DNA from: Candidatus Woesearchaeota archaeon
GTDB lineage: Archaea > Nanobdellota > Nanobdellia > Woesearchaeales > BM511
Reading direction: 5' to 3'
Length of the DNA: 45,766 bases
Assembly: GCA_002867475.1 (NCBI GenBank)
Contig: PKTL01000078.1
Location: 1-45,766 of the forward strand
Shown: positions 86 to 37,150 of the stretch, one piece after another
How the letters are laid out: every line of letters starts with the position of its first letter
Numbering within the stretch: position 1 is the stretch's first letter
Program-made: the position numbers and the translations under genes
The notes under the pieces: model-generated
Databases searched by the model: none
Told to the model about the DNA's origin: nothing
What the model saw: only the letters and a program-made list of their open reading frames with translations

Positions 86-3000
86 CTAAATCACTTCGAA
101 ATATAAATATTTATTCCTTTTTATGTTTCCTCCGTCTGCATAGACGCTTACTCTAACTAGGTTTTCTCCAAGATCAGCGTATTCAGGTACATCAATATAA
201 AACTCTTCAGTTTCAGTTTCTCCTGCGCCTAACCTTCCAAGCCTATAAGTTCTTATTTCCCCTAGATCTGGAAGACTTATTGTCACCCTAACATCATCTA
301 AGGTCTTCGAATAAGTATTTTGAACCTTAGTGAAGATATAGAGTTGATCTCCTGGTGAAACCTCTTGATTTATCACTTCTGTTGATACATAAGTTTGAGA
401 TCTTGCTGAAGTTCCCACGGTACTAAGTCCAACATGGATGTTTTTTGTTGCAATTCTTGTTCTGCCTAATGAATCAGTTACATAAAGTATTACCTTGTAA
501 TCATCTCCAAAAGCATATATGTGTGTTGGATTCATTGCATTACTGAACTTACCATCTCCAAAATCCCAGAAATAAGTGAATGGCGCAATACCGTTTTCAA
601 CTATTGCTGTAAATTTATATGTAACTGGAGCAACAAAACCGCTTATCTTCTCAATTCCAATATCGACATTGAAATTATCGTCGAAAGTACAAGATACTGT
701 TCTTTCCTCATAGATTGTCTGATTAGCTACTTCGCCACAATAATTATCATCGTATAATATTATGCTTCTTGATTGCTCTTGAGTGTTATCAGGCATACAA
801 CTTGTTGTGTTTACCCAATCAGTCCATGAAGTATAAATCATGTTCGGTGTACAGTAATCGCAATCAACAAACTGTGTCTCAGTAAAGGTTTGATTGTTTA
901 CTTCCCCACAATAATTATCGTCGTACAATATCTGTGTCCTAACCTGCTCTTGAGTATTATCTGCTAAGCATGTTCCAACATCAGTCCAAGCTGTCCAACT
1001 AGTATAAACTAGGTTTGGTGTACAATAATCACAATCGATATATGTTCCATTATCGCTTGGAAGACTATCATTTTCTCCACAATTATTTATATCTGTGTAT
1101 GATATCAACCAAAAATTATCTATCTGACAAACATTATTGTCTAATACCCATACAGGTGTGCAATAATCACAATCAACAAACTGTACTTCTGTAAAGCTTT
1201 GGTTGTCTACTTCTCCACAATAATTGTCATCGTATAATATCCTAGTTCTAATCTGTTCCTGTGTATCATCCATATCACATGTTCCTACATCAGTCCAATT
1301 TGTCCAATCAGTATAAACTAGATTTGGAGTACAAAAGTCACAAGGTATGAATTGCGTATTAGTGAAAGTTACATTATCTACTTCACCACAATAATTAGCA
1401 TCATACAATATCTGTATTCTAACCTGCTCTTGAGTATCGTTTGCAAGGCATGAGCCTACATCAGTCCAATCGCTCCAACCAGTACTAGTTATGTTTGGAG
1501 TGCAAAAGTCGCAAGACACATATTGATATTCTGTCTCTGTAACATTGAAAACGCCAACACACTGGTTTTGATCGAACAATATCCTTGTTCTTTCCTGTAA
1601 TTGAGAATCGTTCAGTAAGCATGAGCCTACATTAGTCCAATCACTCCAGTCTGTATATGTCATATTTGTTTCGCAATATATGCAATCTTCATATGTTCCA
1701 TTATCTGCTGGAAGTCCGCCTATTTCACCGCAACTATTCAGATCTATATAACTGATTAATCTTAGATTATCTAGCTGGCAAAGATTATTGTCTAATGTCC
1801 AATTAGGTGTACAAAAGTCGCAAGGTACAAATTGAGTCTCAGTGATTGTTTGGTTATCAACTTCGCCACAATAATTACTGTCATATTGTATAAAGAACCT
1901 GCTTTGTTCTTGGGTGTCATTTGCAAGACAAACACCAACATCTGTCCAATTGCTCCAAGTAGTGTTAGTTATGTTTGGAGTGCAAAAGTCACAAGGTACA
2001 AACTGAGTCTCAGTGAAAGTTACATTATCCACTTCACCACAATAATTACTATCATATTGAGTTAAGAACCTAGTTTGTTCTTGAGTATTGTTTGCTAAGC
2101 ATGAGCCTAGATCAGTCCAATTGCTCCAAGTAGTGTTTACTACAAAAGGTACACAATAATCACAATCAATATATGTTCCGTTGTTTAATGGAAGCCCGTC
2201 TGTTTCTCCACAACTGTTCAAGTCTGTGTAACTGATAAGTCTTGTGTTGTTTGCTAAGCATTCATTAAGATCAAATGCCCAATCTGGAGTACAGAAATCA
2301 CAATCGACAAACTGAGTTTCAAAGATTGTTTCATTATCAACTTCACCACAATAATTACTATCATATTGAGTCAAATATCTTATCTGCTCTTGACTGTCAT
2401 TTGCAAGACAAACATCAACATTTGTCCAAGCGCTCCAAGTAGTATTAGTCATGTTTGGAGTGCAAAAATCACAATATACAAATTGTGTCTCTGTTATTGT
2501 TTGATTATCAAATTCGTTACAATAATTATCATCATATAATATGATGCTTCTTGATTGTTCTTGAGTGTCATTTGCAAGACAAACACCAACATCAGTCCAA
2601 TTAGTCCAATCAGTATAGATAGGATTTGGAGTACAATAATCGCATGAAACATTTCTGTATTCTTCAAAGCTTACATCGTCAACTTCACCGCAGAAATTAT
2701 TATCATACTGTGTTAGATATCTTCCTTGTAATTGGTTATCATCTGGTTGGCAAACACCTATATCTTCCCAATCTGTCCAAGTGGTATTCACTAGATTAGG
2801 AGTGCAGTAATCGCAAAAGATGGTTCTGTATTCATCGAAGATCACATCATCCACTTCACCACAGAAATTGATGTCATACTGTGTTAATGACCTGATCTGT
2901 TCTTGAGTGTCATCTGGTTGACAAAGATTATAATCTACCCAGTCACTCCAACTAGTGTTCACTAAGTTTGGTGTGCAACTGTCACATGGAACTTCTTTAT

Positions 3001-4753
3001 TGAAGATATTTGTCAAGTTGTCAAATTCTCCGCAATAGTTAGCATCATATATTGTTTCGATACTTTGATATATCTGAATGTCATCTACACAGTCCCCTAC
3101 TGGAATCCAATCTGTAGAAACTGATTGTATATCAGGAGTGCAGTAATCACAGTAAACATCTCTGTATTCAGTAAAAACCATATCATCTACTTCACCACAA
3201 TAATTGCTATCATATTGTGTTAGGTATCGTGTTTGCTGTTGAGTGTTATCTGGTTGACAAACTCCAAAGTCTGCCCAAACACTCCAAGTAGTGTTCACTA
3301 AGTTTGGTGTGCAACTGTCACATGGTACAAACCTTGTCTCAGTGAAAACTTCATCATCTACTTCTCCACAATAGTTAGAATCGTATAATGTTCTGCTTCT
3401 TTCCTGTTTTTGAGTGTCATTTGTAAGGCATGCACCAACATTTGTCCAAGCACTCCAATCAGTATATACTAAGTTAGGTGTGCAAAAATCACAATTTTCA
3501 TATGTTCCTGCATCGCTTGGTAAATTATCTGTTGTTCCGCAATTGTTAATATCAGTATATGATATTAATCTAAGATTGTTTGTAAGGCAAGGATTAGTGT
3601 TTTTTACCCAGTTTTCAACACATACTGGGTCCTCTATATAGAGGTTTAAGTATACTGTGTCATCAGTATTTACTTTTCCTACGCACAGAGGGCTGTCTGC
3701 TATTCCTGTAAGGCTTAATTGATAGCTTCCGCTGTTTTCAAAAGTGTGATAAAAACTATATTCTTCAGGGTTGATTGCTTGACTGTTTGCTGGGTTTGAA
3801 AAGCTTACAGATTCAAGAAGCGTTCCTTCATTATATACTCTTAATGTTAGATCTGTTGGAAGAGTTATGTATGAATCTTCATCAGCCATGTAGTTGCTTA
3901 TCTTACCATATGTGAAGTATACTTCTTCTCCTTCAGTAGGTCTAACGCTTGACATAAGTAGATTGTTTAGGATTGTATAGCACTCATCAAGTGGTCTGTC
4001 GGGAAGTACTGTGAAAACTTTTCCTGCACTTTCTGGTTCGCTTGTTAAGCATTGATCATCTGTTACAAAGCTTGTTATCTGTGCTGTGTAAGTTCCATCC
4101 ATTTCTGGAACCCAAGTGAATGCTAGTTTTCTAACTTCATCCATGAATAATGGGTTTGAATGGTCTATATCCATATATCTTAGTTCTGTTGATATTATAT
4201 TATCATTCTCATCTAGGATCTGGAATAAGATCTCTGTATCTGCTGAATAATGATCTAGTATGAATTCTGGAGGAACATAACTTACACCATTATCTGCTTC
4301 GGTAAAAGCACTGTATACACTTGCACCAATGCTTGTATTGAATTCTACTGTTACTGGTTCGTTTGCGTAAGCATCATTTATTATCTGCATGTCCATTATT
4401 GGCGCTCTGCATGTTGATACTTTGTAAAAGTTTATTGTGAAAGGAAAATCTGCTGTACCTGTTCCATACCAATTTACATGATATTCTTGAGGGATATAAC
4501 TATCACTAAAGAAGTATGTTGCGTATCCATTAGGAGTCCTTAATGCTGTTGGATAAGGTATTGTTATCTCCCCATTGGTTGTTGATTGGTCGAACCATGG
4601 TCCGCTAACCTCGCTGCATGTTGAATCTAGGCAGTCATATACTACTGCTCTAACGTTATTTACGTTGAAATCATGATTTATGTATGCTGTAGCGCTTGCG
4701 AACGCTGTAAATACAAACATCATCATGATGTATATTGCTATTTTTCCTTTCAT
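86..4753 (-). CDS. Giant secreted Cys-rich TSR-like repeat glycoprotein with PKD domain
   Basis: A 1555-residue probable surface protein. It begins with a signal peptide (basic MKGK, hydrophobic stretch, ASA-like cleavage near residue 21). Residues about 25-375 look like beta-rich, Ig-like modules. Residues about 377-1355 hold 18 repeats: 14 long (about 57 residues; WxxW, Cys, Q-x-R, YDxNYCGEVD, CDxCTPN) and 4 short (about 46 residues; RLISYTDxNxCG...NGTY). The long unit resembles a thrombospondin type-1 repeat. I count about 39 N-x-S/T sequons in the array. A PKD domain follows (about 1360-1450; FWDFGDG, PTHIYAFGDDY), then a CARDB/Ig-like C-terminal domain. There is no C-terminal membrane anchor or sorting motif. 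It is the last gene of an operon with the lipoprotein and EF-hand-like protein; the start is supported by GGGGGA 5 nt upstream. S-layer or adhesin roles are both possible; I cannot choose. Confidence 0.85.
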   Translation of the reverse strand: MKGKIAIYIMMMFVFTAFASATAYINHDFNVNNVRAVVYDCLDSTCSEVSGPWFDQSTTNGEITIPYPTALRTPNGYATYFFSDSYIPQEYHVNWYGTGTADFPFTINFYKVSTCRAPIMDMQIINDAYANEPVTVEFNTSIGASVYSAFTEADNGVSYVPPEFILDHYSADTEILFQILDENDNIISTELRYMDIDHSNPLFMDEVRKLAFTWVPEMDGTYTAQITSFVTDDQCLTSEPESAGKVFTVLPDRPLDECYTILNNLLMSSVRPTEGEEVYFTYGKISNYMADEDSYITLPTDLTLRVYNEGTLLESVSFSNPANSQAINPEEYSFYHTFENSGSYQLSLTGIADSPLCVGKVNTDDTVYLNLYIEDPVCVENWVKNTNPCLTNNLRLISYTDINNCGTTDNLPSDAGTYENCDFCTPNLVYTDWSAWTNVGACLTNDTQKQERSRTLYDSNYCGEVDDEVFTETRFVPCDSCTPNLVNTTWSVWADFGVCQPDNTQQQTRYLTQYDSNYCGEVDDMVFTEYRDVYCDYCTPDIQSVSTDWIPVGDCVDDIQIYQSIETIYDANYCGEFDNLTNIFNKEVPCDSCTPNLVNTSWSDWVDYNLCQPDDTQEQIRSLTQYDINFCGEVDDVIFDEYRTIFCDYCTPNLVNTTWTDWEDIGVCQPDDNQLQGRYLTQYDNNFCGEVDDVSFEEYRNVSCDYCTPNPIYTDWTNWTDVGVCLANDTQEQSRSIILYDDNYCNEFDNQTITETQFVYCDFCTPNMTNTTWSAWTNVDVCLANDSQEQIRYLTQYDSNYCGEVDNETIFETQFVDCDFCTPDWAFDLNECLANNTRLISYTDLNSCGETDGLPLNNGTYIDCDYCVPFVVNTTWSNWTDLGSCLANNTQEQTRFLTQYDSNYCGEVDNVTFTETQFVPCDFCTPNITNTTWSNWTDVGVCLANDTQEQSRFFIQYDSNYCGEVDNQTITETQFVPCDFCTPNWTLDNNLCQLDNLRLISYIDLNSCGEIGGLPADNGTYEDCIYCETNMTYTDWSDWTNVGSCLLNDSQLQERTRILFDQNQCVGVFNVTETEYQYVSCDFCTPNITSTGWSDWTDVGSCLANDTQEQVRIQILYDANYCGEVDNVTFTNTQFIPCDFCTPNLVYTDWTNWTDVGTCDMDDTQEQIRTRILYDDNYCGEVDNQSFTEVQFVDCDYCTPVWVLDNNVCQIDNFWLISYTDINNCGENDSLPSDNGTYIDCDYCTPNLVYTSWTAWTDVGTCLADNTQEQVRTQILYDDNYCGEVNNQTFTETQFVDCDYCTPNMIYTSWTDWVNTTSCMPDNTQEQSRSIILYDDNYCGEVANQTIYEERTVSCTFDDNFNVDIGIEKISGFVAPVTYKFTAIVENGIAPFTYFWDFGDGKFSNAMNPTHIYAFGDDYKVILYVTDSLGRTRIATKNIHVGLSTVGTSARSQTYVSTEVINQEVSPGDQLYIFTKVQNTYSKTLDDVRVTISLPDLGEIRTYRLGRLGAGETETEEFYIDVPEYADLGENLVRVSVYADGGNIKRNKYLYFEVI
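689..3625 (-). repeat. Coding tandem repeat array (18 units)
   Basis: This stretch codes for residues about 377-1355 of the secreted protein. Units of about 171 bp (long) and 138 bp (short) occur in the order short, 7 long, short, 2 long, short, 3 long, short, 2 long. Units are diverged at DNA level but keep fixed Cys, Trp and YDxNYCGE positions. Long units 1-5 carry Asp-Asp where most of units 6-14 carry Asp-Asn-x-Thr/Ser, so sequons are concentrated in the later units. Confidence 0.85.
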
Positions 4754-4782: not shown

Positions 4783-6060
4783 TTAGTAGTTAATAGGTGT
4801 TGTAAATTGTGGAACTGCTCCACCACCATCATTACCAACTAATCCACCTCCAACTTCATTTGCTGGTGGCTTTTCACAGGTTGGACAATCTTTACCGCCA
4901 AACTGATCTTTTGCACTTAATCTTAAAAGATAGGATCCTGTCAGTTTTGCTGCATCAAATGCAAACATAGTTGAATATTTATCACCCGTTGGATCATTAA
5001 AAGATAATATTACCCCATTAGGTGTTTTCTCATATCCAGTAAATCCATCTTCTAAAGTTATTACTGTTGTTCCAGTTTTACCATCAACACCTACATAATC
5101 CAATACTAATGCTTGATTGACTGGTTCTGTTGGGAAACCATTTTGAAAAGATGCATCGCTTGTTGTTACATGCTGTGTTACTTGGCTTAATGCATAATCT
5201 CTTTTATTAGTTTTATTTGTTACTGGAAAACTTTTGTAATTATTTTCGTTTTCATCTAAAATATCTGAAAGTTCTTTTTCATCATCTCCAAAAAAGTGAT
5301 TTATTAAGTCCCCAGCAAGAGTATATCCTGCACCAACCAAAGCTCCAGGAGCATTTGCTATTATCGCACCAGAAGATGTGTTTACAGCATATTCATTTAA
5401 TCTTTTGACTAATCCATTAAAATCATCAAGTTCATATGTCAATTCAGATTTTTCTGTTCCAAAATTTATTTCAAGCTCATAATTATTATCTTCAAAACTT
5501 CCAATCTGTTTTAAATTCATAGATATATTTCCATTTCCATTTGAAAAATTCAATATATTTTCTAGATTTAGTCCTACTGTTGGAAGAAATCCTGCATTAA
5601 CATAATCTTCTGGTAATTCTTTATGTAATATCATTGCTGATGCCATGTCTCTTCCATCAAATTGTCTAGATGAGTCATAATTTAAAAATAGATTTTCACT
5701 TTTACCTTCTTCTAAAGGTAATTGAGAATCATTCAATAAATATGCTTGAGTTATGCCTTTCCTGTCTAGTAAGTGTGAATTGTTTCTTACCCAATCATCA
5801 ACTTCATTATGCTTGTATTCTAGCTGTTTTCCTACTAATTTAGCATTAGCAGAACTATTATTCGCTGCATGAGCTTTAAGAGTGCTTTCTAATCCTTTTA
5901 ATTTTTGTGAAGCAAGCTCTGCTTCTTGCTGTGATACTTGCAGTTCTTGTGCTGTTAATTTTTGCGGACCTAGATCAACAACACCTTTTGTTGTTGTAGC
6001 TGCGCATCCACCTAAATACAGTGATAGTGCTGCGATTGTTGGAACTATTATCTTTTTCAT
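4783..6060 (-). CDS. Putative surface lipoprotein
   Basis: A 425-residue protein with a lipoprotein-type signal peptide: MKK, a hydrophobic run, then the lipobox-like LGGC with Cys at residue 19. A Gln/Glu/Ala-rich stretch at about 40-65 may form a short coiled coil. The middle is not recognisable. Near the C-terminus there is a CPTC pair followed by a Gly-rich low-complexity tail. Several N-x-S/T sequons are present. It lies 5 nt after the EF-hand-like gene and 29 nt before the giant repeat gene, in the same orientation, so the three are probably co-transcribed. GAGGT about 7 nt upstream supports the start. The family is unknown; the lipobox is the only functional clue and the modification enzyme in this organism is not known. 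Confidence 0.75.
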   Translation of the reverse strand: MKKIIVPTIAALSLYLGGCAATTTKGVVDLGPQKLTAQELQVSQQEAELASQKLKGLESTLKAHAANNSSANAKLVGKQLEYKHNEVDDWVRNNSHLLDRKGITQAYLLNDSQLPLEEGKSENLFLNYDSSRQFDGRDMASAMILHKELPEDYVNAGFLPTVGLNLENILNFSNGNGNISMNLKQIGSFEDNNYELEINFGTEKSELTYELDDFNGLVKRLNEYAVNTSSGAIIANAPGALVGAGYTLAGDLINHFFGDDEKELSDILDENENNYKSFPVTNKTNKRDYALSQVTQHVTTSDASFQNGFPTEPVNQALVLDYVGVDGKTGTTVITLEDGFTGYEKTPNGVILSFNDPTGDKYSTMFAFDAAKLTGSYLLRLSAKDQFGGKDCPTCEKPPANEVGGGLVGNDGGGAVPQFTTPINY

Positions 6061-6065
6061 ATTGA

Positions 6066-7622
6066 TTACCTCTTGATATTAAATCCTATTATTTTATCTC
6101 CTAATTTGAATTTTTTTGGTTGTTGTATTAGTATTGGTATTAATGCATCAAGACTACTTGGATTACTTTTAAGCCAATCTTGAGATTTTCCACTATAATA
6201 TGCTTCTAGAACTAATGCTTCTTGAGAATTCAAACCTAGCTCTTTAATTAAAAAATCATTAAATCCTGCTGAATTATAACTTGTTACATTTCCTTCATTC
6301 AAATATAATGCATCATTAAAAAAATCAAAAGTTGACTTTATTTCACCTCTTTCATCTAATAAACCAATTATATTAGGCCCATCTATATTTACATTATATA
6401 ATAAAGGTTTGACTCCATCATTAATTTGATCAACCTCAAATTCTGAAGGGATCATGCTTGCTAATTGTCCTCCAAGATCTTTTGCAGTTTCATCTGCAAT
6501 ATTTGAAGATATAACAGGTTCTGCTTTTTTAGCAGGTACAGCTGGTTTTTTCTCTGGTTTTGGCGCTGGTTTAACGATTGGTTTTGGTTTTGCTTCTAGT
6601 TTCCCAGCACCACCATAAACACTTGCTAAAATATTATCATTAAATTTTACTGCAACTTCAAAATTGCCCTTTTCCCAATCAAAAGTTTTAGCATTTTCAT
6701 ATTTGCTTAGATCAATATAGAATTCTCCTTTTCTTTTTTTGAAATCATCTGAACTAAAACTTATAGGCTTATCTAAATCATTGATTTTTTTATCGTTATT
6801 CGAATCGTAGTTTATCTTGAATTCAGTTCCTTTCTTATAGAGACCATCAGAAATACCTACATTTATTCCGTCTATTTTTTCATCTTTACCTTTTTGGAAG
6901 TATAATGTTCCTATTCCTCTTTCTGGAACAGAATATGTTTGGTCTTTTTCAGTGAATGGTTCCATTGTTTTTGGATCCACTTTGCTAGATACGTGTCTTC
7001 CTTTAGAAGAATCTTTTGCCCATGCATCAACTACTGCTTCATAATCACTTTGTTTATCTTCTTTAAGCGATTTAGGCTTTGATACGCCTTTTTCATAACT
7101 TACATCAATTTTATGTTCTATTGTTGTTGCTTTTGCTTGAGGCTCTGAAGCTATAGCATTTGAATTGCTACCGTACATTCCTAGTGTTGCTGTTGCAATC
7201 ACTGCTGCTGCAAGACCTGCTGCAACTGCTTTTTTGACTCCGGTTTTTAGTCCTGAATAAAATTTTGTTTGTTCTGGTTCTTCTTGAAGTGTTATGTTTA
7301 CACCATCATAAAGTTTTGATGCTAATCCAGTTGCTATTTCTTTTTCATCTTGATTTGATAGTTTGTTGATTATACTGCTTACGTCATCATTTGTCAATCC
7401 TTCTCTTGAAGTATATTTGTCAAGCATCTCATATAATGCACCGTGAATATTATTTGGAGATTGTTCGCTTGAATAGTTTGTTTTTATGGGATCATGGTCG
7501 ATGATTCCATCTATCAAGTCGTTTAAAGTTTTATATCCTGCATTAGCCATAAATGAATCTTCTTTAGAAATATGATTTTTTCTTTTATCTGGCATATGGT
7601 ATAGGTTTGGTTTTTCTTTCAT
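6066..7622 (-). CDS. Membrane protein with EF-hand-like calcium loop and Pro/Lys linker
   Basis: A 518-residue protein of unknown family. Residues 1-130 are hydrophilic and probably cytoplasmic; residues 131-151 (AVAAGLAAAVIATATLG core) form one TM helix; the rest is probably outside. Residues 273-284 (DSNNDKKINDLD) resemble a dockerin/EF-hand calcium loop inside a beta-rich domain. A Pro/Lys/Ala-rich linker (about 342-369) leads to a second domain of about 140 residues. The start is backed by a GGGG run about 7 nt upstream. It is the first gene of the operon that ends with the giant repeat protein, and is driven by the promoter at 7732-7760. The topology matches that of the next gene upstream (7781-8899). 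A role in anchoring or assembling the surface protein is plausible but unproven. Confidence 0.75.
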   Translation of the reverse strand: MKEKPNLYHMPDKRKNHISKEDSFMANAGYKTLNDLIDGIIDHDPIKTNYSSEQSPNNIHGALYEMLDKYTSREGLTNDDVSSIINKLSNQDEKEIATGLASKLYDGVNITLQEEPEQTKFYSGLKTGVKKAVAAGLAAAVIATATLGMYGSNSNAIASEPQAKATTIEHKIDVSYEKGVSKPKSLKEDKQSDYEAVVDAWAKDSSKGRHVSSKVDPKTMEPFTEKDQTYSVPERGIGTLYFQKGKDEKIDGINVGISDGLYKKGTEFKINYDSNNDKKINDLDKPISFSSDDFKKRKGEFYIDLSKYENAKTFDWEKGNFEVAVKFNDNILASVYGGAGKLEAKPKPIVKPAPKPEKKPAVPAKKAEPVISSNIADETAKDLGGQLASMIPSEFEVDQINDGVKPLLYNVNIDGPNIIGLLDERGEIKSTFDFFNDALYLNEGNVTSYNSAGFNDFLIKELGLNSQEALVLEAYYSGKSQDWLKSNPSSLDALIPILIQQPKKFKLGDKIIGFNIKR

Positions 7623-7649
7623 TTTTGAACCCCGGGTGAAAGTTTTATG

Positions 7650-7705
7650 TTTTCATCACATAAAAGTGCTTTGTTGAATTGATTGTTGTCACTCTTTGAT
7701 GAAAA
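7650..7705 (-). promoter_or_regulatory. Inverted repeat in the 5' leader of the EF-hand-like gene
   Basis: TTTTCATCA (7650-7658) and TGATGAAAA (7697-7705) are perfect 9-bp complements separated by 38 nt. With the TATA box at 7732-7739 on the minus strand, transcription should start near 7708, so the stem would begin almost at the 5' end of an mRNA leader of about 85 nt. No known riboswitch class is recognised. Confidence 0.35.
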
Positions 7706-7731
7706 TCTTTTAGAAAAGGAAGGTAGATTAC

Positions 7732-7760
7732 TATATAAAGCTTTCTATTTTGTTACTATT
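7732..7760 (-). promoter_or_regulatory. BRE/TATA promoter block, copy B
   Basis: On the minus strand this reads AATAGTAACAAAATAGAAAG followed by CTTTATATA, a strong archaeal BRE/TATA arrangement for the three-gene surface operon starting at 7622. It is 27/29 identical to the block at 45-73. The direct repeat ACTATTTAG occurs at 7755-7763 and 7772-7780, immediately upstream of and overlapping the element, and may be a regulator site. Confidence 0.65.
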
Positions 7761-7780
7761 TAGAAATGATAACTATTTAG

Positions 7781-8899
7781 TTAAATTTGTTGAAGTTTTT
7801 TATCAAGTTCTAATACAGATCCTGTTTCTTTGCTTAAATGAGAAAGATAAGTCTTGTTTGAATAAAGATTCTCTTTTAATGATCTTAATGTCGAGCTATC
7901 ATAATTATTTTCATCAACCATCCTATTAAGCTCTTTTGCACGGTCTTTCCATTTCCAGACATCTTGACTTGACCCAAGAAGCACATCTTTTAGACCATTA
8001 TTAGTCATTGAAGAATTTACTCTTGCAAAATAAGTCTTCTCTTTTCCTATAGGAGATATACCTTCTTTCTTTTTTGCAAATAAATTCATATAATTTTTAG
8101 CAAACATAGATATTCCTTTTGCTGATTGAGCTGTTTTTCCTTTCAGCTTGATATAGCTATTTTTTAATACGTTAGCAATCTTATCTTTAGCTACATCTAT
8201 ATCGCTTAAGATTGCATAGCCATCAACTATCTTGAGATCTCTTCCTCTTTCTATCTCATCTCTTGAATATATTCCATCACCATTCGAATCGATTATTAAG
8301 GAAACTTTGCTATCTATAGAAGGATTAGCAACTTTTGTCTTAAAAGTGTATTCTCCGTCCGATTCTAGATTTATAGAAGTCTTTCCAAGAACAGGTTTAG
8401 CCACATGGGAAGAAGGAATAGTTTCCTTAGCATCTTCTTTGACAATATTATTTTTTAAGATATTTTCAAGACCTTCTACTTTCTCTTTAGTTTTTGCAAT
8501 AACACTTTTTAGTTCTGGAGATTCATTTATTTTTTCCTCAACTTCCACCAATACATTTTCTGCACTATTAGAAGCTTTTTCAGCTGTTTGAACTATAGGA
8601 GTTGCAATCTTAGAAAACAATTCAGGTTTTTTTGTTATAGTATAAGCACCAACAGCATAAGTTAATGTTGAAGTGAATATCATTGCAGAAGCAAGAGAAA
8701 GACAATACTGGATGGTAGAATTGTCAAGAAAACCTTGAGATTTAGGATGATCTCTCATAATTATCTGTCTTTTTCTTTCATCAGCAGCATGAGCTTTGTA
8801 AAAATGATTAGCTGAAACTCCCGGATCATTACCTTTAACAATATGAAACTTTCTGAGCAATTCTCCGAGTCCATGTTTTCCTTTTAATTTTTGAACCAT
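7781..8899 (-). CDS. Single-TM protein with canonical EF-hand loop
   Basis: A 372-residue protein of unknown family. I place the start at 8899 because the upstream 16 codons are hydrophobic/aromatic leader-like and the MVQKLKGKHG start gives a basic cytoplasmic segment. Residues about 62-86 form a TM helix. A Glu/Lys-rich helical stretch (about 105-155) may be a coiled coil. Residues 204-215 (DSNGDGIYSRDE) match an EF-hand loop with D1, N3, D5, G6 and E12. The C-terminal third is helical and Lys-rich. The layout (cytoplasmic basic head, TM, beta-rich part with calcium loop) is like that of the 518-residue protein downstream, although sequence similarity is slight. A TATA-like TTTTTATAT lies about 38 nt before the start. 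Confidence 0.72.
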   Translation of the reverse strand: MVQKLKGKHGLGELLRKFHIVKGNDPGVSANHFYKAHAADERKRQIIMRDHPKSQGFLDNSTIQYCLSLASAMIFTSTLTYAVGAYTITKKPELFSKIATPIVQTAEKASNSAENVLVEVEEKINESPELKSVIAKTKEKVEGLENILKNNIVKEDAKETIPSSHVAKPVLGKTSINLESDGEYTFKTKVANPSIDSKVSLIIDSNGDGIYSRDEIERGRDLKIVDGYAILSDIDVAKDKIANVLKNSYIKLKGKTAQSAKGISMFAKNYMNLFAKKKEGISPIGKEKTYFARVNSSMTNNGLKDVLLGSSQDVWKWKDRAKELNRMVDENNYDSSTLRSLKENLYSNKTYLSHLSKETGSVLELDKKLQQI

Positions 8900-8981
8900 T
8901 TTAACCACTTTGAAATAATAAGTAATATTTTGAAATATAAAAATCAATTGTTTTAATAAATCCTAGTTTACTTTATGTAAA

Positions 8982-9284
8982 TTACTTATTAGAAATTATA
9001 TCATCCACTATTTTCCCTAAACCTTCCTTGACATTATCAAAAGTTCGTTCGATCTCATACCCTGTTCTATAGACAAAAGAAGGCAATTCGCCAGATTTGT
9101 AAGAATCAAAAAGATAGGTTCCACCAAAACAAACAGAAGGTATAAGAGTTGCTACAGCAGCACATTTTAAAACTAGAGATTTCCAATTTGTTTCATATTT
9201 TTCAGGATTTTGTTGCCTATCAATCTCATATTTGAGCTTCTTGCTTAGAAGACTTTTTTCCTCAAATTTTCTAGGATTTACCAT
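8982..9284 (-). CDS. Small single-TM protein, unknown
   Basis: A 100-residue protein starting at MVNPRKFEEK; a longer reading with 21 more codons (to 9347) is possible but begins with an unlikely hydrophobic leader. Residues 1-35 are charged, about 36-59 form a TM helix (core VLKCAAVATLIPSVCFGG), and the rest is a short amphipathic tail. It is the first of the leftward genes after the divergent intergenic region. It repeats the basic-head/TM/outer-tail plan of its two larger neighbours on a small scale. No family is recognised. Confidence 0.6.
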   Translation of the reverse strand: MVNPRKFEEKSLLSKKLKYEIDRQQNPEKYETNWKSLVLKCAAVATLIPSVCFGGTYLFDSYKSGELPSFVYRTGYEIERTFDNVKEGLGKIVDDIISNK

Positions 9285-9404
9285 ATTTACATACCATTTA
9301 TGATTTGTAAGGAATGTTGTTTTTACTAATAAAATTAACTGATACATATTTATTCACGAGAATTGAGTCAAGTTGAGATTATTGAAAAATTATACTCTAC
9401 TTCA

Positions 9405-9576: not shown

Positions 9577-12417
9577 ATGAAAAAAAACATTAGAAAAAAT
9601 AAGAATTTTAAAGATAATAATGAAGAGATCGAGCTCGATCTTTCAAAAGTCAAAGATGGATACAAAAAAGTTGTAAATAACGATTATGTAAAAAAATATG
9701 CATACCTTATTCTACTCATAATCCCAATAATCCTTGCAGCCCATTTCAGGCTTTACCCTTCAGACCTCCCAATAACTGAAGACTGGGCTAGAAACTCTAT
9801 CGAATCAAGCATAAAGAGTAATATCGCTTCCCAAATAAACCAGCAATATCCAAACCTCCCTACATCTAATAAGAATAATATGATCAATGAGAACTATGCG
9901 ACATTTCTTGAAAGCAATAAAGCCGATATAGAAAGTGCAGTTGTTGAGAATGCAAAAATGTTTAGAGATCAGTTCAAAGATGAAGATGGCAACACATATC
10001 TTTTAGCAATCGACCCTTATTATTACTATAGGCAAGTTGAGAATATGATTGAGACAGGCCATGCATATGATGATATAATTGAAGGAGTTCCTACAGACAC
10101 TCACATGTATGCACCAATAGGTAAAAAAATGTCAAATAATTTGAAAGGTGCAAGCTTCCACGTTTGGCTAAGCACATTCTGGCACAAATTCCTTAATCTT
10201 TTTACAGATATCAGCGTTATGGGTTCATTTTTCTATATGCCTGTTATAATCTCAGCACTTAGTGTTATTCCAGCATTTTTTATTGCTAGACGTGCTGGTG
10301 GAAACCTCGCAGGTTTTTTTGCGGGAATGATTGTTGGACTTCACTCAGTTTTCTTAGGACGAACCCCTGCAGGATTCAGCGATACTGATGCGTATAATGT
10401 GCTTTTTCCTTTAATGATCTCTTGGCTTTTCATAGAAGCTTTCGAAAATAAAGATCTGAAGAAAAAATTGACTCTTGCAAGTCTTGCTGGACTTACAGCA
10501 GGAATATACAGCTTTGCATGGAGCGCGTGGTGGTATATCTTTGACATTATCTTAATCTCTATGATTGGATATGTTATATATTATGGAATACTACATAGAG
10601 ATGAATTAAAAAAAGGTTTCAAAAATTATATTTCACAAGAAAACGTAAAAAATCCTTTGATGATACTTGGTACTTTTTTTGTTTCCACATCTATAATGGC
10701 AACTATTTTTGGTAGAAATTTATTTTTTGTAGCAAAAGCCACATTAGCCCCTATAAATAGTCTTGCGATTCAAGATTCTGCAAAAGCAGACCTTTGGCCT
10801 AATGTTTTTACTACAGTTGCCGAACTTAATACTGCTAGCCTTAATAGTATCATAAATGGTCTTGGTGGAAAATTCATGTTCATAATAGCACTTATGGGAA
10901 TGATAATGACAATCAGCAGCACAAAAAACAAGAAAAATCTTGGATTTTTAGGTGGAAGCTTTGGTTGGTTACTACTTCTATTAAGCTTTAGTGCAAAGCT
11001 TTCAGTAACTCAATTCATTATTCTCCTTGGAATCCCTGTTGCATTAATACTTTCATATTACCTATTGTACAAGGAAACAAATATTGATATCAAGTACGCA
11101 GTATTCTTTACTATATGGTTCCTTGGTACAGTCTATACGACAACAAAGGGTATAAGGTTCCTACTGCTTATGGTTCCTGTTTTTGGAGTCGCTTATGGTA
11201 TTGCTATAGGAAAATTCTATAGATACATCATCGATTGGGTTGATGAAGAGCTTGATCTTAACAAAAAAATTGGATCGATCCTTATTGGAGGATTACTATT
11301 ACTATTATTAATTGCTCCTATAAAGGATGCTAATGCTACTGCTCTAAATGAAGTTCCTAGCATGAATGATGGATGGTTCCAAAGCCTTGATAAGATAAAT
11401 CAAGAAGCAGCACCTGACGCGATAATCAATTCTTGGTGGGATTTTGGTCACTGGTTCAAAGCTATAGGAGACAGAGCGGTCACTTTTGATGGTGCAAGCC
11501 AGAACACGCCGATGGCTCATTGGATTGGACGAAGCTTGCTTACTAGTAATGAAGAAGAATCTATAGGTATTCTTAACATGCTTGATTGCGGTTCAAATAA
11601 TGCTTTTGAAAAACTACAAGAATATGGTTTTTCAACTATTGAAAGCGTTGATATATTAAGAGAGATCACAAAATCTGATGAAGATGATGCAAAAGATATC
11701 TTTGAAGATAATGGATTATCTGGTTCACAAATTAATGAGATGATTGCACTTACTAAGTGTGATGCTCCTGAAAATTATTATATCACTAGTGAAGATATGA
11801 TCGGTAAAAGCGGTGTTTGGGCTCATTTTGGAAGCTGGGACTTTAGACGTGCTCTTATCTGGAACGAATACAGGAATCTCCCAAGATCCGAATTTGATTC
11901 AAAATTAAAAGAATTAGGTTTCAACGATACTGAAATAAGCGACATTTATTATGGTATCCAGCCACTTAGCGAAGGAAGAAGCGCTAATACTTGGATTGCT
12001 CCTTGGCCTAGTTATGCATCAGGATTATCATCATGTCAAGAAACTACTGAATTGATAGTTTGCCAGTCAGGACTTATTATAAATAAATCAGATAATATGA
12101 GTGCTTACATCCCTACTCAAGATGGAAACCTTCACCCTAAAAGATTCTCTTATGTAGATAATGAAACTTTTGTTATGGATGAATATGAAAAAGGTAAAGT
12201 TTTGACTGGAAGTGACGGCAGCTTTATTGGTGCAAGCCTAATCAAGCAAGGAAACAATTATTACAGCATCCTTATGCACTATGAACTTGTAGGAAGCACA
12301 TTCAATAAGCTTTTCTATTATGATGGTGCAGGCCTTGATCACTTCGAAAAATTCAGTGATGTAAGAGATGTCACGGGTGCTAGGATAATCGTTTGGAAAG
12401 TTAATTGGGAAAAATGA
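9577..12417 (+). CDS. aglB: Archaeal oligosaccharyltransferase AglB (STT3 family)
   Basis: Transfers a lipid-linked oligosaccharide to Asn of N-x-S/T sequons on the outer membrane face. It has 946 residues: a charged N-terminal tail, TM1 (about 40-57), a first external loop with DPYYYYR (146-152), a DTD motif (269-271), about 12 further TM helices, the TVAELN motif (412-418; counterpart of SVSE/TIxE) and a C-terminal globular domain with WWDFG (620-624). A DMIGK segment (740-744) resembles the DK/MI helix. All acidic residues expected for metal binding are visible. The first loop is longer than usual (about 80 extra residues before DPYYYYR). It leads an operon of ten overlapping or near-touching genes for glycan building, and is divergent from the envelope genes that include the sequon-packed repeat protein. 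Confidence 0.95.
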   Translation: MKKNIRKNKNFKDNNEEIELDLSKVKDGYKKVVNNDYVKKYAYLILLIIPIILAAHFRLYPSDLPITEDWARNSIESSIKSNIASQINQQYPNLPTSNKNNMINENYATFLESNKADIESAVVENAKMFRDQFKDEDGNTYLLAIDPYYYYRQVENMIETGHAYDDIIEGVPTDTHMYAPIGKKMSNNLKGASFHVWLSTFWHKFLNLFTDISVMGSFFYMPVIISALSVIPAFFIARRAGGNLAGFFAGMIVGLHSVFLGRTPAGFSDTDAYNVLFPLMISWLFIEAFENKDLKKKLTLASLAGLTAGIYSFAWSAWWYIFDIILISMIGYVIYYGILHRDELKKGFKNYISQENVKNPLMILGTFFVSTSIMATIFGRNLFFVAKATLAPINSLAIQDSAKADLWPNVFTTVAELNTASLNSIINGLGGKFMFIIALMGMIMTISSTKNKKNLGFLGGSFGWLLLLLSFSAKLSVTQFIILLGIPVALILSYYLLYKETNIDIKYAVFFTIWFLGTVYTTTKGIRFLLLMVPVFGVAYGIAIGKFYRYIIDWVDEELDLNKKIGSILIGGLLLLLLIAPIKDANATALNEVPSMNDGWFQSLDKINQEAAPDAIINSWWDFGHWFKAIGDRAVTFDGASQNTPMAHWIGRSLLTSNEEESIGILNMLDCGSNNAFEKLQEYGFSTIESVDILREITKSDEDDAKDIFEDNGLSGSQINEMIALTKCDAPENYYITSEDMIGKSGVWAHFGSWDFRRALIWNEYRNLPRSEFDSKLKELGFNDTEISDIYYGIQPLSEGRSANTWIAPWPSYASGLSSCQETTELIVCQSGLIINKSDNMSAYIPTQDGNLHPKRFSYVDNETFVMDEYEKGKVLTGSDGSFIGASLIKQGNNYYSILMHYELVGSTFNKLFYYDGAGLDHFEKFSDVRDVTGARIIVWKVNWEK

Positions 12418-19083: not shown

Positions 19084-19917
19084 TTATCTGTTAATTCTTT
19101 TTCTTTTAATCTTTTCTGGTTCTGTTAAATAATTTTCATTCGAAACTACACTTTTCCCAATCTGATCTTCAATATTTTTTCTTGTATCAGCTGCTATACT
19201 GCCACCATCATTAGCATCCTTTTTTAACTCATTGAACCTTTTTGAATCCCTTTCCCTAGTGAATCTTGTTGTTACATTCTCTCCAAGCATAGTAAGAATT
19301 AGTTCAGTGTCATCCATGTGATCACGAAGATTCTCATTTTCAAGATTCTTGAACTTTTTATATTCCTCAACACTTTTTCCAAATGTAGCTTTTGATATCT
19401 CATTTGTAAGTATAGCAAATCCAAAATCATGATTTACACCCCTATTTTTCCATTCGTCTGTCAATTCCTGCCTTATGGAAATTCCTCTCACTCTCTTTTC
19501 AATCCATTCATCACTATACCCTTTCTCCTTATAGATTATTTTCATTCTTTCTTGAGCTAATTCAGGATTTTCTATCTCTTTTACTCTTTCATATCCGACT
19601 TTTGCAAGCCATAACTTGAAAGGCTCAGCTTTCTTGGAAGGTATTGATTGAATTATCCTAAATAAGGATTCAGTATTAGCACAATCTGTTTCTCTTAATT
19701 TCCCATCAGGTGATTCCATTTTCAACTGTACACAATTTGTGGACAGTTCAATTCCATGTTCTAATTCTCTTTTTTTAAGCATAGACCAATAATTTCTAGG
19801 ATTATTACTATCTGTTAAAACATGGACTACATCAATTACTGAGAAATACCATTCATTATCATGCCAAACTCTTCTAATATTATTTCCTTGAAAGATAGCT
19901 AGATTATTTTCAACCAT
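19084..19917 (-). CDS. Bro-N domain protein (phage antirepressor / DinD-like)
   Basis: A 277-residue protein. Residues about 5-105 match the Bro-N fold (FQGNNIRRVWHDNEWYFS, VLTDSNNPRNYW, ESLFRIIQSIPSKKAEPFK). The remainder (WLAKVGYERVKEIENPE, RGISIRQELTDEWKNRGV) resembles the DNA-damage-inducible protein D / Bro-N group of bacteria and viruses. The start is at 19917: TTTATAAAG at 19940-19948 (read as TATA on the minus strand) lies about 27 nt upstream, so the message is probably leaderless. It is a lone gene in the opposite direction to both flanking glycan operons and unrelated to them, which suggests insertion by transfer. Confidence 0.82.
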   Translation of the reverse strand: MVENNLAIFQGNNIRRVWHDNEWYFSVIDVVHVLTDSNNPRNYWSMLKKRELEHGIELSTNCVQLKMESPDGKLRETDCANTESLFRIIQSIPSKKAEPFKLWLAKVGYERVKEIENPELAQERMKIIYKEKGYSDEWIEKRVRGISIRQELTDEWKNRGVNHDFGFAILTNEISKATFGKSVEEYKKFKNLENENLRDHMDDTELILTMLGENVTTRFTRERDSKRFNELKKDANDGGSIAADTRKNIEDQIGKSVVSNENYLTEPEKIKRKRINR

Positions 19918-19939
19918 AAAAATAGAAATGATAAGATTA

Positions 19940-19999
19940 TTTATAAAGTTCACGTGACTATGTCCTGTGACATGGTAAAACTGATATATTAATATATCA
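19940..19999. promoter_or_regulatory. Palindrome-rich divergent promoter region
   Basis: This region separates the Bro-N gene (minus) from the GT2 operon (plus). It holds the Bro-N TATA box (19940-19948), an 8-bp palindrome TCACGTGA (19950-19957) at the BRE position, an inverted repeat ATGTC-CTGT-GACAT (19960-19973), and an 18-bp perfect palindrome TGATATATTAATATATCA (19982-19999). A TATTA-type box near 20004-20013 could drive the plus-strand operon. Confidence 0.55.
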
Positions 20000-21064: not shown

Positions 21065-21757
21065 ATGCAGGTAGCAATTCTTGTTGGAGGAAAAGGCACA
21101 AGATTAAAACCTTTGACTGATGACACACCTAAACCTATGGTTCTTGTAAATGGCAAGCCTTTTCTTTATTATCTTGTTGAATATTTTAAGAAGAAAGGAG
21201 TGGATGATATTATTTTTCTTACTGGTTATATGTCTGAAAAGATTGAAGATTATTTTGGTGATGGGTCAGATTTTGGAATTAAGATAAGATATTCTGTTGA
21301 ATCAAAACCTCTTGGTACTGCTGGAGCCATAAGGAATGCATATGAGCTTTTAGATGATGAGTTCATAGTGGTTAATGGAGATACATTGGTTGAGTTTGAT
21401 CTTCAAGGATTTGTTGAAAATCATAAGAATAAAGATAATCCTATCAGTATGCTAATCATAAGAAAGGTTGGTAAAAGATTTGGTAACATAAAGGTTGAAA
21501 AAGATATTGTTTCGGGTTTTAGTGAGAAAGAAAACCCTACCGGTTTTATCAACGCGGGAATCTATCTCTTGAATAAATCAGTTCTTGATAAGATTGAAGA
21601 GGATATGTTTATATCAATAGAAAATGATGTTTTCCCAAAATATGTTGGGAAGATGACTGCTTTTATGACAGATGGTTATTTTATTGATATAGGAACTATT
21701 GACACTTATGAAGAATTCAAGAAGGATATTTTAGAGCTTGAAAAGAGGTTATTATGA
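21065..21757 (+). CDS. hddC: Heptose-1-phosphate guanylyltransferase (HddC-like)
   Basis: A 230-residue sugar-phosphate nucleotidyltransferase: AILVGGKGTRLKPLTDDTPK (substrate-binding loop), PLGTAGAIRNA, the metal-binding VNGDTLVEFD, NAGIYLL and FIDIGT. On its own it could be any NDP-sugar pyrophosphorylase. The next three sugar enzymes are GmhB, HddA and GmhA, so D-glycero-alpha-D-manno-heptose 1-phosphate is the likely substrate and GDP-heptose the product. It overlaps gmhB by 4 nt. Confidence 0.82.
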   Translation: MQVAILVGGKGTRLKPLTDDTPKPMVLVNGKPFLYYLVEYFKKKGVDDIIFLTGYMSEKIEDYFGDGSDFGIKIRYSVESKPLGTAGAIRNAYELLDDEFIVVNGDTLVEFDLQGFVENHKNKDNPISMLIIRKVGKRFGNIKVEKDIVSGFSEKENPTGFINAGIYLLNKSVLDKIEEDMFISIENDVFPKYVGKMTAFMTDGYFIDIGTIDTYEEFKKDILELEKRLL

Positions 21758-22317
21758 TGAATAAAGCAATATTTATTGATAGGGATGGAACCATCAATAA
21801 GGATTCAGGGTACACTCATAAATTAGAGGATCTAGAATTTGAGGATAATGCTATTGAAGGGCTTAAGCTTATCAAGGAAAAGCTTCCATTCTATAAGATA
21901 ATAATTATAACAAACCAAGCAGGTATAGCTAAAGGACATTATGATGAAAATGCCTTCCATTCATTTATGGATCATCTTTTGGAAGTTCTTGAAAGAAAAG
22001 GGATTGGTATAGAAGATTATTATTTTTGTCCACATCATGAGAAAGGACTTGGAGATTATAAGAAAGCATGTGATTGCAGAAAACCAAATCCTGGAATGAT
22101 ATTGAAAGCTATCAAAGATCATGATATAGATACTTCTAAGTCTTATATGATCGGTGATAAATGGGCTGATGTGAAAGCTGGAGATAATGCTGAACTAAGA
22201 TCTATTCTTGTTATGACTGGTGATAAAGGAAATGATATTGAAAATAAGGTCGAATCCGCATTTATCGCTAAGGATCTTAAAGACGCTATAGAATATGTTG
22301 TTCGAGATAAGAATTAG
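21754..22317 (+). CDS. gmhB: Heptose 1,7-bisphosphate phosphatase (GmhB-like HAD)
   Basis: A 187-residue HAD phosphatase with FIDRDGTINKD (nucleophile and acid/base Asp), ITNQAGIAKG, the zinc-loop pattern C-x-H...C-x-C in FCPHHEKG and ACDCRKPNPG, and MIGDKWADVKAG. These are the GmhB/histidinol-phosphatase hallmarks. It removes the C7 phosphate from heptose 1,7-bisphosphate. Two adjacent ATG codons make the exact start uncertain by one residue; AGAGG lies just upstream. Confidence 0.88.
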   Translation: MMNKAIFIDRDGTINKDSGYTHKLEDLEFEDNAIEGLKLIKEKLPFYKIIIITNQAGIAKGHYDENAFHSFMDHLLEVLERKGIGIEDYYFCPHHEKGLGDYKKACDCRKPNPGMILKAIKDHDIDTSKSYMIGDKWADVKAGDNAELRSILVMTGDKGNDIENKVESAFIAKDLKDAIEYVVRDKN

Positions 22318-22321
22318 AAAC

Positions 22322-22333
22322 ACATATAAATAA
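22322..22333 (+). promoter_or_regulatory. Internal promoter before hddA
   Basis: ATATAAATAA (22324-22333) is centred about 25 nt before the hddA ATG at 22353, in the only sizeable gap (35 nt) of the heptose operon. This spacing fits a leaderless transcript beginning at the ATG. Confidence 0.5.
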
Positions 22334-22352
22334 TGCTATTTTAGATTTCTCC

Positions 22353-23375
22353 ATGGGGGAAAGGAAAATTATTATCAATTCTAGGGCTCCTGTCCGTATC
22401 AGTTTTGGTGGTGGCGGAACAGATGTTGATCCATTTTGCAAGGAGCATGGTGGCGCAGTTATCAGTGCTGCTATCAATAGATATGCATATTCTAGTCTTG
22501 AAGTAAGCGATAAGTATGTTTTTAAAAGCGGTAATTTTGATTGTGATCTTGAATTTGATAAGATTGAAGATATGGATTATGATGGTAATCTTGATCTTAT
22601 AAAATCTATAGTGAAGCATTATAACAAAAAGGATAAGTATAAGATATTTCTTGATGTTGAAGCTCCTCCTAGAAGCGGGCTTGGTAGTAGTGCTAGTGCT
22701 TTTGCGAGTGTCATTGGTCTTTTTAATCATATGAAACAGCATGAAAGGATAACTGATTATGAAGTTGCAGAACTTGCATATAATCTTGAGCGTGAAGAAT
22801 TGAAGAATGCTGGTGGAAGGCAGGATCAGTACGCAGCTGTTTTTGGTGGATTGAACTATATAGAGTTTAAAGGTGATAATTTTGTTCGTGTAAATCCTTT
22901 GAAATTGAAAAAAGAGTATGAGCTTGAGCTTGAAAAAAATCTTTTGCTTGTACATATTGGTTCAAGAAAGGACTCTGGAGATATAATTGGCGATCAAAAT
23001 AAGAATTATGAGAAAGGAAAGAACAAGGATCCGCTTTTTCAAACTAAAGAGATAATGGATAAGATGAAATATTCCCTTCTTAGGGGAGAGCTTGATGAGT
23101 TTGGGAATCTTTTGGATAAAGCATGGAAACTAAAAAAACAATTCTCTAAGATGGTTTCTAATTCTGAAATTGATAAGATTTATGATACTGCTTTAAATAA
23201 TGGCGCTCTTGGTGGTAAAATCACTGGTGCTGGTGGCGGAGGGCATATGCTTTTCTATTGTCCTGGCAATACTAAGAATGATGTTTTGAAAGAACTTCTT
23301 AAATTAGGTGTTACACATGTTCCTTTCAATTTTGATTATGAAGGTCTTGTAACTTGGGAGATTAAAAATGAATGA
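22353..23375 (+). CDS. hddA: D-glycero-alpha-D-manno-heptose 7-phosphate kinase (HddA)
   Basis: A 340-residue GHMP kinase: SRAPVRISFGGGGTDVDPF at the N-terminus, the ATP-binding PPRSGLGSSASAFASV, and KITGAGGGGHMLFY at the C-terminus, which is the HddA/HSP-kinase style of the family. It phosphorylates heptose 7-phosphate at C1. The ATG at 22353 is followed directly by a G-rich run, but the TATA box 25 nt upstream suggests the ATG is the mRNA 5' end, so I keep it. It overlaps gmhA by 8 nt. Confidence 0.88.
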   Translation: MGERKIIINSRAPVRISFGGGGTDVDPFCKEHGGAVISAAINRYAYSSLEVSDKYVFKSGNFDCDLEFDKIEDMDYDGNLDLIKSIVKHYNKKDKYKIFLDVEAPPRSGLGSSASAFASVIGLFNHMKQHERITDYEVAELAYNLEREELKNAGGRQDQYAAVFGGLNYIEFKGDNFVRVNPLKLKKEYELELEKNLLLVHIGSRKDSGDIIGDQNKNYEKGKNKDPLFQTKEIMDKMKYSLLRGELDEFGNLLDKAWKLKKQFSKMVSNSEIDKIYDTALNNGALGGKITGAGGGGHMLFYCPGNTKNDVLKELLKLGVTHVPFNFDYEGLVTWEIKNE

Positions 23376-23940
23376 TGTTGCTAGTTTAATTGAAGATAGT
23401 ATTGAAGTTAAGAAAAGATTGCTTCAGGATGAAAAGCTTGTTGAAAAGATAAATGTTGCTTGTGATAAGATCCTTGATTGCTATTCAAAAGGTGGAAAAG
23501 TCATTTTCATGGGTAATGGTGGAAGTGCAGCTGATGCTCAACACTTATCTACTGAATTTATATCAAAATTTCTTCTTGAAAGAGGAAGCCTTGCCTCTAT
23601 TGCTCTTAATTGTAATACTTCTACACTTACTGCTATAGGAAATGATTATGGTTTTGATTATGTTTTTTCAAGACAGATCGAAGGATTGGCAAATGAAAAT
23701 GATGTAGTATTTGGAATAAGCACTAGTGGTAATTCAGCAAATATTCTTGAAGCTTTGAAAAAAAGCAAAGAGAAAGGATGCTATTTTATAGGACTAACTG
23801 GTGAAAAAGGAGGAGCTATGAAAGAAGGTGTTGATTTACTTCTTAATGTTCCTTCAGATCACACGCCAAGAATACAGGAAGCACATATAATGATAGGGCA
23901 TATTATTTGTGAGATAGTTGAGAGGAGGATGTTTAGATGA
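23368..23940 (+). CDS. gmhA: Sedoheptulose-7-phosphate isomerase GmhA
   Basis: A 190-residue SIS-domain protein with the GmhA signature FMGNGGSAADAQHLSTEFI, SIALNCNTSTLTAIGNDYGF, GISTSGNSANILEAL and a C-terminal IQEAHIMIGHIICEIVE. It isomerises sedoheptulose 7-phosphate to D-glycero-D-manno-heptose 7-phosphate, the first committed step of the heptose pathway. Length and all core motifs match the family. It overlaps the TagD-like gene by 4 nt. Confidence 0.92.
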   Translation: MNDVASLIEDSIEVKKRLLQDEKLVEKINVACDKILDCYSKGGKVIFMGNGGSAADAQHLSTEFISKFLLERGSLASIALNCNTSTLTAIGNDYGFDYVFSRQIEGLANENDVVFGISTSGNSANILEALKKSKEKGCYFIGLTGEKGGAMKEGVDLLLNVPSDHTPRIQEAHIMIGHIICEIVERRMFR

Positions 23941-28595: not shown

Positions 28596-29663
28596 TTATG
28601 CCCTTTTCATGATTTCTTCATATAATAAATCAGCGATTTTTTCATGAGTGAAATTTTCTGCTAATTTGAGACTATTTTTTTGAATTTTTGCAAGTTCTTT
28701 CTGATTCTTCTGATAATACTTTATTTTCTTAACCAGGTCTTCATAATCTCCTTTCTTGAACATTATGCAATTCTTCTTATTTATAAAACCTAGATCCTTA
28801 TATATCGAGTTATCTGTACATACCATTACGCACCCAGCTGCTATACCTTCATAGGTTCTTGCAGGTGGAAAATTAAGTACGCTTTCATCATTTATGAACA
28901 TCTGATACCTATTCATCATTTCAACTGCATCATAGCTAAAATCTTTTGTCTGTGGATAAACAGGCAACCTAATATCAATAACTTTTTGATATAAAAGATT
29001 TTCTCTATCAAAAGCTAATTTATATCGTATAGGATGCATAAAATTATTCTTCCCAAAAAACTCCATATAACTTTTTATTTCTTCTTTTTTACATCTAGGA
29101 TCATTAATAGGATTAAGTGAACCGAGTATAACTGCTTTTTTTTGCCTTTTATAAAAAGTATTTAATGGTTGAAATCTTTTATGATACCCGAAAGGGATAG
29201 AAACAACTTTATTTTTAAATGTAGGATAATATTTCATAAAAAAATCAGAATATTTATCATGATAATTATATCCTAGTAAATAAGTAATGTTATTTTTCAA
29301 CAAAAAATTATTAGTTTCAAGTGGATTAAAAAAAAAATCTAAAAGATGAAAAAAAGATTTTCCTTTAAAATTACTTAAATCTAATTCATTAACTTTTTTA
29401 TGAACCCCATTTAAATCCAATAAAATATCACTTTCAGTAAATTTATTTAAACTTAATACATATTTAAACTTAAAAGGATTAATTTTATGATATAAAAACA
29501 TAGCAAGATAATTTCTAATTAATTTTATAGTTATTTTCTCACTAATATAAAATATTGGCTTATGATTTAATATAAATATTTTATAATAATTTAAAATATT
29601 ATTTACTCTAATACCAAGATTATCAAAAGGATCTACAACAATTAAATTTTTTTTTATAGACAT
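28596..29663 (-). CDS. Putative glycosyltransferase (GT1/CgeB-like)
   Basis: A 355-residue protein starting at MSIKKNLIVVDP (an ATG 18 nt upstream is less likely). The C-terminal half has NDESVLNFPPARTYEGIAAGCVMVCTD, DLGFINKKNCIMFKKGDYED and EKIADLLYEEI, which match the Glycos_trans_1_2/CgeB-like group. The N-terminal half is poorly conserved and AT-rich. A TATA region at 29686-29697 lies about 28 nt before the start, suggesting a leaderless message. The donor sugar is unknown. Confidence 0.7.
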   Translation of the reverse strand: MSIKKNLIVVDPFDNLGIRVNNILNYYKIFILNHKPIFYISEKITIKLIRNYLAMFLYHKINPFKFKYVLSLNKFTESDILLDLNGVHKKVNELDLSNFKGKSFFHLLDFFFNPLETNNFLLKNNITYLLGYNYHDKYSDFFMKYYPTFKNKVVSIPFGYHKRFQPLNTFYKRQKKAVILGSLNPINDPRCKKEEIKSYMEFFGKNNFMHPIRYKLAFDRENLLYQKVIDIRLPVYPQTKDFSYDAVEMMNRYQMFINDESVLNFPPARTYEGIAAGCVMVCTDNSIYKDLGFINKKNCIMFKKGDYEDLVKKIKYYQKNQKELAKIQKNSLKLAENFTHEKIADLLYEEIMKRA

Positions 29664-37119: not shown

Positions 37120-37140
37120 CCTATCTGAGGATTTTAAACT

Positions 37141-37150
37141 TTATATAAAT
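37141..37150 (-). promoter_or_regulatory. Sulfotransferase promoter (TATA box)
   Basis: TTATATAAAT, 22-31 nt before the sulfotransferase ATG at 37119. The rest of the 111-bp gap up to 37230 is AT-rich and holds no gene that I can see. Confidence 0.55.

Follow-up and report, generated by a model that had tools for sequence, protein, structure and literature searches.

A predicted thrombospondin-repeat-like module, apparently a conserved carrier of N-glycans, in secreted proteins of Woesearchaeota-type archaea

Among the archaeal surface proteins described so far, the S-layer protein of Sulfolobus acidocaldarius has 31 predicted N-glycosylation sites (PMC5744192), and in archaellins the sites are confined to one sub-domain (PMC11607397). 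The protein considered here is encoded in the window, that is, the whole stretch of 45,766 nucleotides analyzed, which is an entire contig of a 1.67-Mb assembly (95% complete) of a Candidatus Woesearchaeota archaeon. It gathers its potential N-glycosylation sites in a tandem array of Cys-rich units resembling thrombospondin repeats (TSRs), which is followed by a PKD domain. Most likely the protein acts outside the cell as a stalk or adhesin that is glycosylated and stapled by disulfides, where glycosylation and the adhesive role are inferred, and its TSR-like module looks like a conserved carrier of N-glycans. The main features of the repeat gene and its neighbors are listed in Table 1.

Table 1. 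Features of the repeat gene and neighboring genes in the window
Feature	Coordinates	Strand	Description and basis
Secreted repeat protein (P0001)	86..4753	minus	1555 aa; ORF and translation
Putative signal peptide	4685..4753	minus	residues ~1-23; hydrophobic N-terminus MKGKIAIYIMMMFVFTAFASATA, read directly from the sequence
N-terminal region	3623..4684	minus	residues 24-377; 1 sequon; without family match
Tandem Cys-rich TSR-like units	689..3622	minus	residues 378-1355; 18 units (14 long, 4 short); 39 sequons
Short unit 1	3485..3622	minus	
Short unit 2	2156..2293	minus	
Short unit 3	1676..1813	minus	
Short unit 4	1025..1162	minus	
PKD domain	452..628	minus	residues 1376-1434; Pfam PF18911, E 1e-11; PDB collagenase PKD matches
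Weak NEW3/NPCBM_assoc-like beta domain	143..358	minus	residues 1466-1537; Pfam PF10633, E 0.0077, below cut-off
Four co-directional genes	4783..9347	minus	425, 518, 388 and 121 aa; signal/lipobox or hydrophobic segments
AglB/STT3 oligosaccharyltransferase	9577..12417	plus	WWDFG motif present; only copy found in the genome

The units are bounded by Cys residues and are either long (55-57 aa, n = 14) or short (46 aa, n = 4), with four Cys in each unit (positions 1, 19, 39, and 55). The motif WxxW occurs in 13 of the 14 long units and is followed by Q-x-Q-x-R in the register known from TSRs; its two residues, W10 and W13, are almost invariant across the module family. The initial annotation of this DNA had described an ORF of 1555 residues with 14 long and four short Cys-rich repeats, the same number of WxxW-containing long units, and about 39 sequons, up to five per unit, some of them overlapping WxxW. 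All these counts were reproduced, for a gene located on the minus strand. The same annotation called the product a coat protein, a designation that finds no support, as the repeat protein has no C-terminal hydrophobic segment or anchor in its sequence and the Pfam scan assigns it to no S-layer family. Pfam hits of the repeats to Fer2_2, PriCT_2, Aca2_YdiL, and Iron_traffic were summed or sub-threshold, with no single convincing stretch, and were discarded as repeat artefacts.

The resemblance to thrombospondin repeats, already remarked on in the initial annotation, is borne out by the predicted fold. The AlphaFold2 model of two adjacent units, built from an alignment of the window's own units only, has a mean pLDDT of 89.7, and its top Foldseek matches in PDB are the TSRs of thrombospondin-1 (7yyk, 3r6b, 1lsl), followed by properdin and semaphorin-5A (Sema5A). 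TSR constructs make up 14 of the top 16 matches, with probabilities up to 1.00; the best E-value is 1.5e-3, so that no match reaches E 0.001. A single unit, modeled with 51 aligned units at pLDDT 92.9, matches the third TSR of BAI1 (7r84, TM 0.55/0.62), with E-values that are weak because the unit is short. The predicted models have the three-stranded fold with an irregular Trp strand that is characteristic of TSRs. The profile comparison with TSP1 proposed along with the two-unit model gave nothing significant by phmmer, hmmsearch, or hhalign: the Pfam family TSP1_CFP_C scores 25.2 bits on the repeat protein, under the cut-off of 27, with no single stretch passing; the best match of a unit to TSP1 families has E 0.036; hhalign against true TSRs gives a probability of 4%, with the register W..W..C..R as expected; and hmmsearch of PDB with the expanded unit alignment finds no match. 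Further, the units have four Cys, not the six that form three disulfides in TSRs. On the basis of its predicted fold the unit can thus be called TSR-like, though not a confirmed member of the TSP1 family.

The absence of a sequence-level match, the missing pair of Cys, and the weak E-values of the single unit would also fit a new kind of Cys-rich beta module with no relation to TSRs, whose similar short three-stranded shape has misled AlphaFold2 and Foldseek. Of the alternatives considered here, this one keeps the most weight, but we judge it unlikely, given the dominance of TSR constructs among the two-unit matches and the position of WxxW and Q-x-Q-x-R in the TSR register. A TSR-like fold remains our preferred assignment for the units.

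Sequons of the form N-{P}-[ST] are concentrated in the repeats: 39 of the 40 are found there, with one in the N-terminal 377 aa and none in the C-terminal 201 aa. A unit contains at most five, and in four units an N-W-T sequon falls within WxxW itself. When the repeat region is shuffled, 16.5±3.5 sequons are expected, and none of 5000 shuffles reaches 39. The control motifs are rarer, with three occurrences of the reversed [ST]-x-N and 12 of D-x-[ST], and among offsets 1-6 from N to S/T, offset 2 is the commonest. Tandem copies inherit their sequons, and simple shuffles therefore overstate independence, so that a further control permuted the residues inside each alignment column. In 13 units of the window, 31 sequons are observed against 22.7±1.7 after such permutation, and in 38 units of relatives 176 are observed against 149.6±3.9; in neither case do any of 2000 permutations reach the observed number. 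With a single unit per genome (22 genomes), a control that removes sequence relatedness only in part, the numbers are 94.5 and 76.1, respectively. The N and S/T residues are thus coupled beyond the column composition, as expected if the sequon itself were selected, and from these alignments it looks selected. At unit position 44, four units of the window have D, and in three of these the hydroxyl residue at +2 is also gone (DDEV, DDMV, and DDVI), the fourth being DDVS.

The module is not restricted to the window. The long-unit profile matches 24 of 353 genomes of the order, several of them through short-type units only, and the expanded profile adds eight genomes elsewhere in the class, which brings the total to 32; the named matches are Candidatus Woesearchaeota assemblies. 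The backbones carrying the modules are very different, comprising proteins of 484-2100 residues and larger ones, for instance, one of 3175 aa with 13 units and 139 sequons and another of 4007 aa with 210 sequons. Several module-bearing relatives have C-terminal membrane segments, and two module-bearing proteins of one genome have a common N-terminal domain. The sequons are kept along with the unit: 21 other species, from the Woesearchaeota-type order and others of the class, retain two to seven of them. Genome means range from 2.0 to 7.0 sequons per long unit, and the protein of the window, with 2.4, is at the low end, below most relatives, and hence is not an extreme case. Two sites are nearly universal, namely unit position 7 (N-T-S/T-W), a sequon in 20 of 22 genomes, and unit position 44 (N-x-T, at the start of the last strand), a sequon in 21 of 22. 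Positions 15, 22, and 30 are common sequon sites in relatives, with 15 and 30 absent from the window protein. Two outcomes had been named in advance as fatal to the idea of a heavily glycosylated repeat protein, namely the lack of a sequon excess over shuffled composition and the existence of relatives that keep the repeats and lose the sequons; the excess is present, and the relatives retain their sequons. In the open literature searched, TSR-like modules of DPANN archaea are the subject of no paper, one elsewhere being possible, and the module family is apparently undescribed.

Sequon enrichment is not specific to the repeat protein. In a background sample made up of the window and 20 further genome stretches (L077-L096, ~300 kb), secreted-like ORFs contain 594 sequons when the repeat protein is left aside, 1.93 times the shuffled expectation, compared with 1.00 times in cytosolic-like and 1.04 times in multi-TM ORFs, the secreted and cytosolic classes being split by a crude hydrophobicity rule. 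Some secreted proteins are denser in sequons than the repeat protein, with 24 in 431 aa, 192 in 3859 aa, and 149 in 3250 aa. As could be expected of an AglB substrate, the repeat protein itself is secreted and has sequons that are both in excess and coupled. Most simply, a single N-glycosylation system of general scope would serve the entire secretome, with the modules as prominent carriers. Comparison of AglB presence with the secretome sequon excess in sister genomes draws on too few secreted proteins from the stretches sampled, and absence of AglB is uncertain in incomplete assemblies. Sequon excess across a secretome might serve as a readout of N-glycosylation from the genomes of unculturable organisms.

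The sequons could instead be a by-product of an Asn/Thr-rich TSR-like scaffold, in which N and T are structural residues of turns and beta strands and little or no glycosylation occurs. The repeats are indeed rich in N, T, and D, and tandem duplication copies sequons. A scaffold of this kind does not explain why the reversed motif is so rare, why N and S/T are linked within rows beyond the column frequencies even with one unit per genome, or why the same directional enrichment is seen in the secretome and not in cytosolic ORFs; we therefore find this explanation rather improbable and prefer selection for the sequons as such.

The initial annotation combined the sequon-packed protein with a glycan factory of its own, and only the first part of this proposal stands: sequon packing appears to be selected and is kept in relatives, whereas a dedicated factory is not supported by the gene neighborhoods. 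The idea that the neighboring aglB and glycan locus make an N-glycan reserved for this one coat protein was suggested by the presence, on the same contig and 5-40 kb away, of aglB (at 9577) and of a glycan locus that includes genes for GDP-heptose and for sulfation, together with the finding of a single AglB in the genome. However, aglB is transcribed divergently from the repeat gene, on the opposite strand, and the survey of gene neighborhoods suggested earlier did not detect adjacency of module and AglB in any other genome where both positions are listed, the two being on separate contigs or more than 90 kb apart. For instance, the module and AglB are at 163 and 431 kb in G271 and at 505 and 277 kb in G429, respectively; in G391 modules at 156, 528, and 572 kb compare with AglB at 251 kb, and in other genomes separate contigs are involved. 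AglB is found in 300 of the 353 genomes of the order, with or without the module, and therefore co-occurrence with the module says little. The heptose marker HddA was sought in ten further genomes of the order, nine of which bear the module; nine of the ten have no match, and the remaining one has a partial match that is weak and below cut-off. Moreover, other secreted proteins equal or exceed the repeat protein in sequon density, and AglB, if single-copy, must serve all substrates. Neither a conserved neighborhood nor co-occurrence with the repeat protein was thus found for the glycan locus in the genomes compared, a dedicated factory is very unlikely, and the glycan genes next door look like coincidental neighbors of a protein that the general system would modify.

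The neighborhood has several features of its own. The four genes between the repeat gene and aglB may be transcribed together with the repeat gene as one unit. One of them, encoding the 425-aa protein with a lipobox-like LGGC, was considered as a tracer of a conserved cluster and rejected as an orphan, since 144 other genomes of the order yield no relative. Genes of the glycan locus include a GDP-mannose 4,6-dehydratase-like one at 16202 and a GDP-D-glycero-alpha-D-manno-heptose cassette at 21065-23940 (plus strand) with HddC-, GmhB-, HddA-, and GmhA-like genes, the HddA model scoring 252 bits. A lone minus-strand ORF (19084-19953) is located inside the plus-strand glycan operon. The sulfate block at 36358-43779 (minus strand) includes genes for a sulfotransferase, an APS kinase, a CysN-like protein fused to an APS-kinase-like domain, a CysD-like protein, and an inositol-phosphatase/PAP-phosphatase-like protein, and is adjoined by a Wzx-type flippase gene; this combination of sulfate activation and transfer with a flippase suggests a sulfated surface glycan. 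Within the glycan locus, short AT-rich tandem repeats lie inside genes or between them (29543-29598, 33156-33209, 40676-40718, and 44758-44795).

Finally, C-mannosylation of the Trp residues as in animal and apicomplexan TSRs, hinted at in the initial annotation and in keeping with the nearly regular WxxW of the long units and the near-invariance of W10 and W13 in the family, is extremely improbable, since the mannosyltransferase Dpy19 (PF10034) is above cut-off in none of 22 module-bearing genomes, and we know of no archaeal C-mannosylation. One of these genomes has a weak partial Dpy19 match of 18 bits, below the cut-off (G226:C51:5260-5529), the sole case among the 22.

Taken together, we consider it probable, at a level well short of certainty, that the protein is a secreted TSR-fold stalk whose modules carry N-glycans attached by the general AglB. 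According to this model, 18 TSR-fold modules and then a PKD domain would form an extended surface or extracellular stalk. The modules would belong to a mobile family, appended to unrelated secreted or membrane-anchored proteins in Woesearchaeota-type DPANN archaea and others of the class. Each module would be an N-glycan carrier in which selection maintains the sequons N7, just before the first Trp, and N44, where the last strand begins, with three further ones (15, 22, and 30) being common. As for the rest of the secretome, glycosylation of the modules would fall to AglB, the general oligosaccharyltransferase of the cell, and the outcome may be a rigid, glycan-coated, protease-resistant spacer or adhesin. 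More speculatively, and with little more than an outside chance of being right, the glycans at N7, beside the Trp ladder, and at N44, on the last strand, could provide the stabilization and secretion quality that animal TSRs owe to C-mannose and O-fucose; if so, one fold has been glycan-stabilized twice, by different chemistries. The findings point to a module family of uncultured symbiont-type archaea for which the thrombospondin-repeat fold is predicted; its position-conserved sites are a concrete sign of DPANN N-glycosylation, read from sequence only, in which the exact asparagines can be named.

Compared with the TSRs of TSP-1 (1lsl, 3r6b, 7yyk), properdin, Sema5A, and BAI1, the archaeal modules are likewise tandem units of ~57 aa, with WxxW followed by a Cys, a Q/R-rich strand, and another Cys, and with a predicted three-stranded fold for which TSRs are the top Foldseek matches. 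They differ in having four Cys instead of six, in lacking a significant sequence-profile match, in bearing N-glycan sequons at fixed sites, and in that no Dpy19 C-mannosyltransferase was found in the module-bearing genomes. Like the S. acidocaldarius S-layer protein and archaellins, the repeat protein is secreted and sequon-dense, with the sites gathered in one part of the protein; unlike them, it consists of TSR-like tandem modules with a PKD domain, and its module is spread across many unrelated backbones. With PKD-containing archaeal surface proteins (PDB 1l0q, Surface layer protein) it shares the C-terminal PKD domain, whereas its repeat region is unrelated to theirs and the PKD match here covers just 59 residues.
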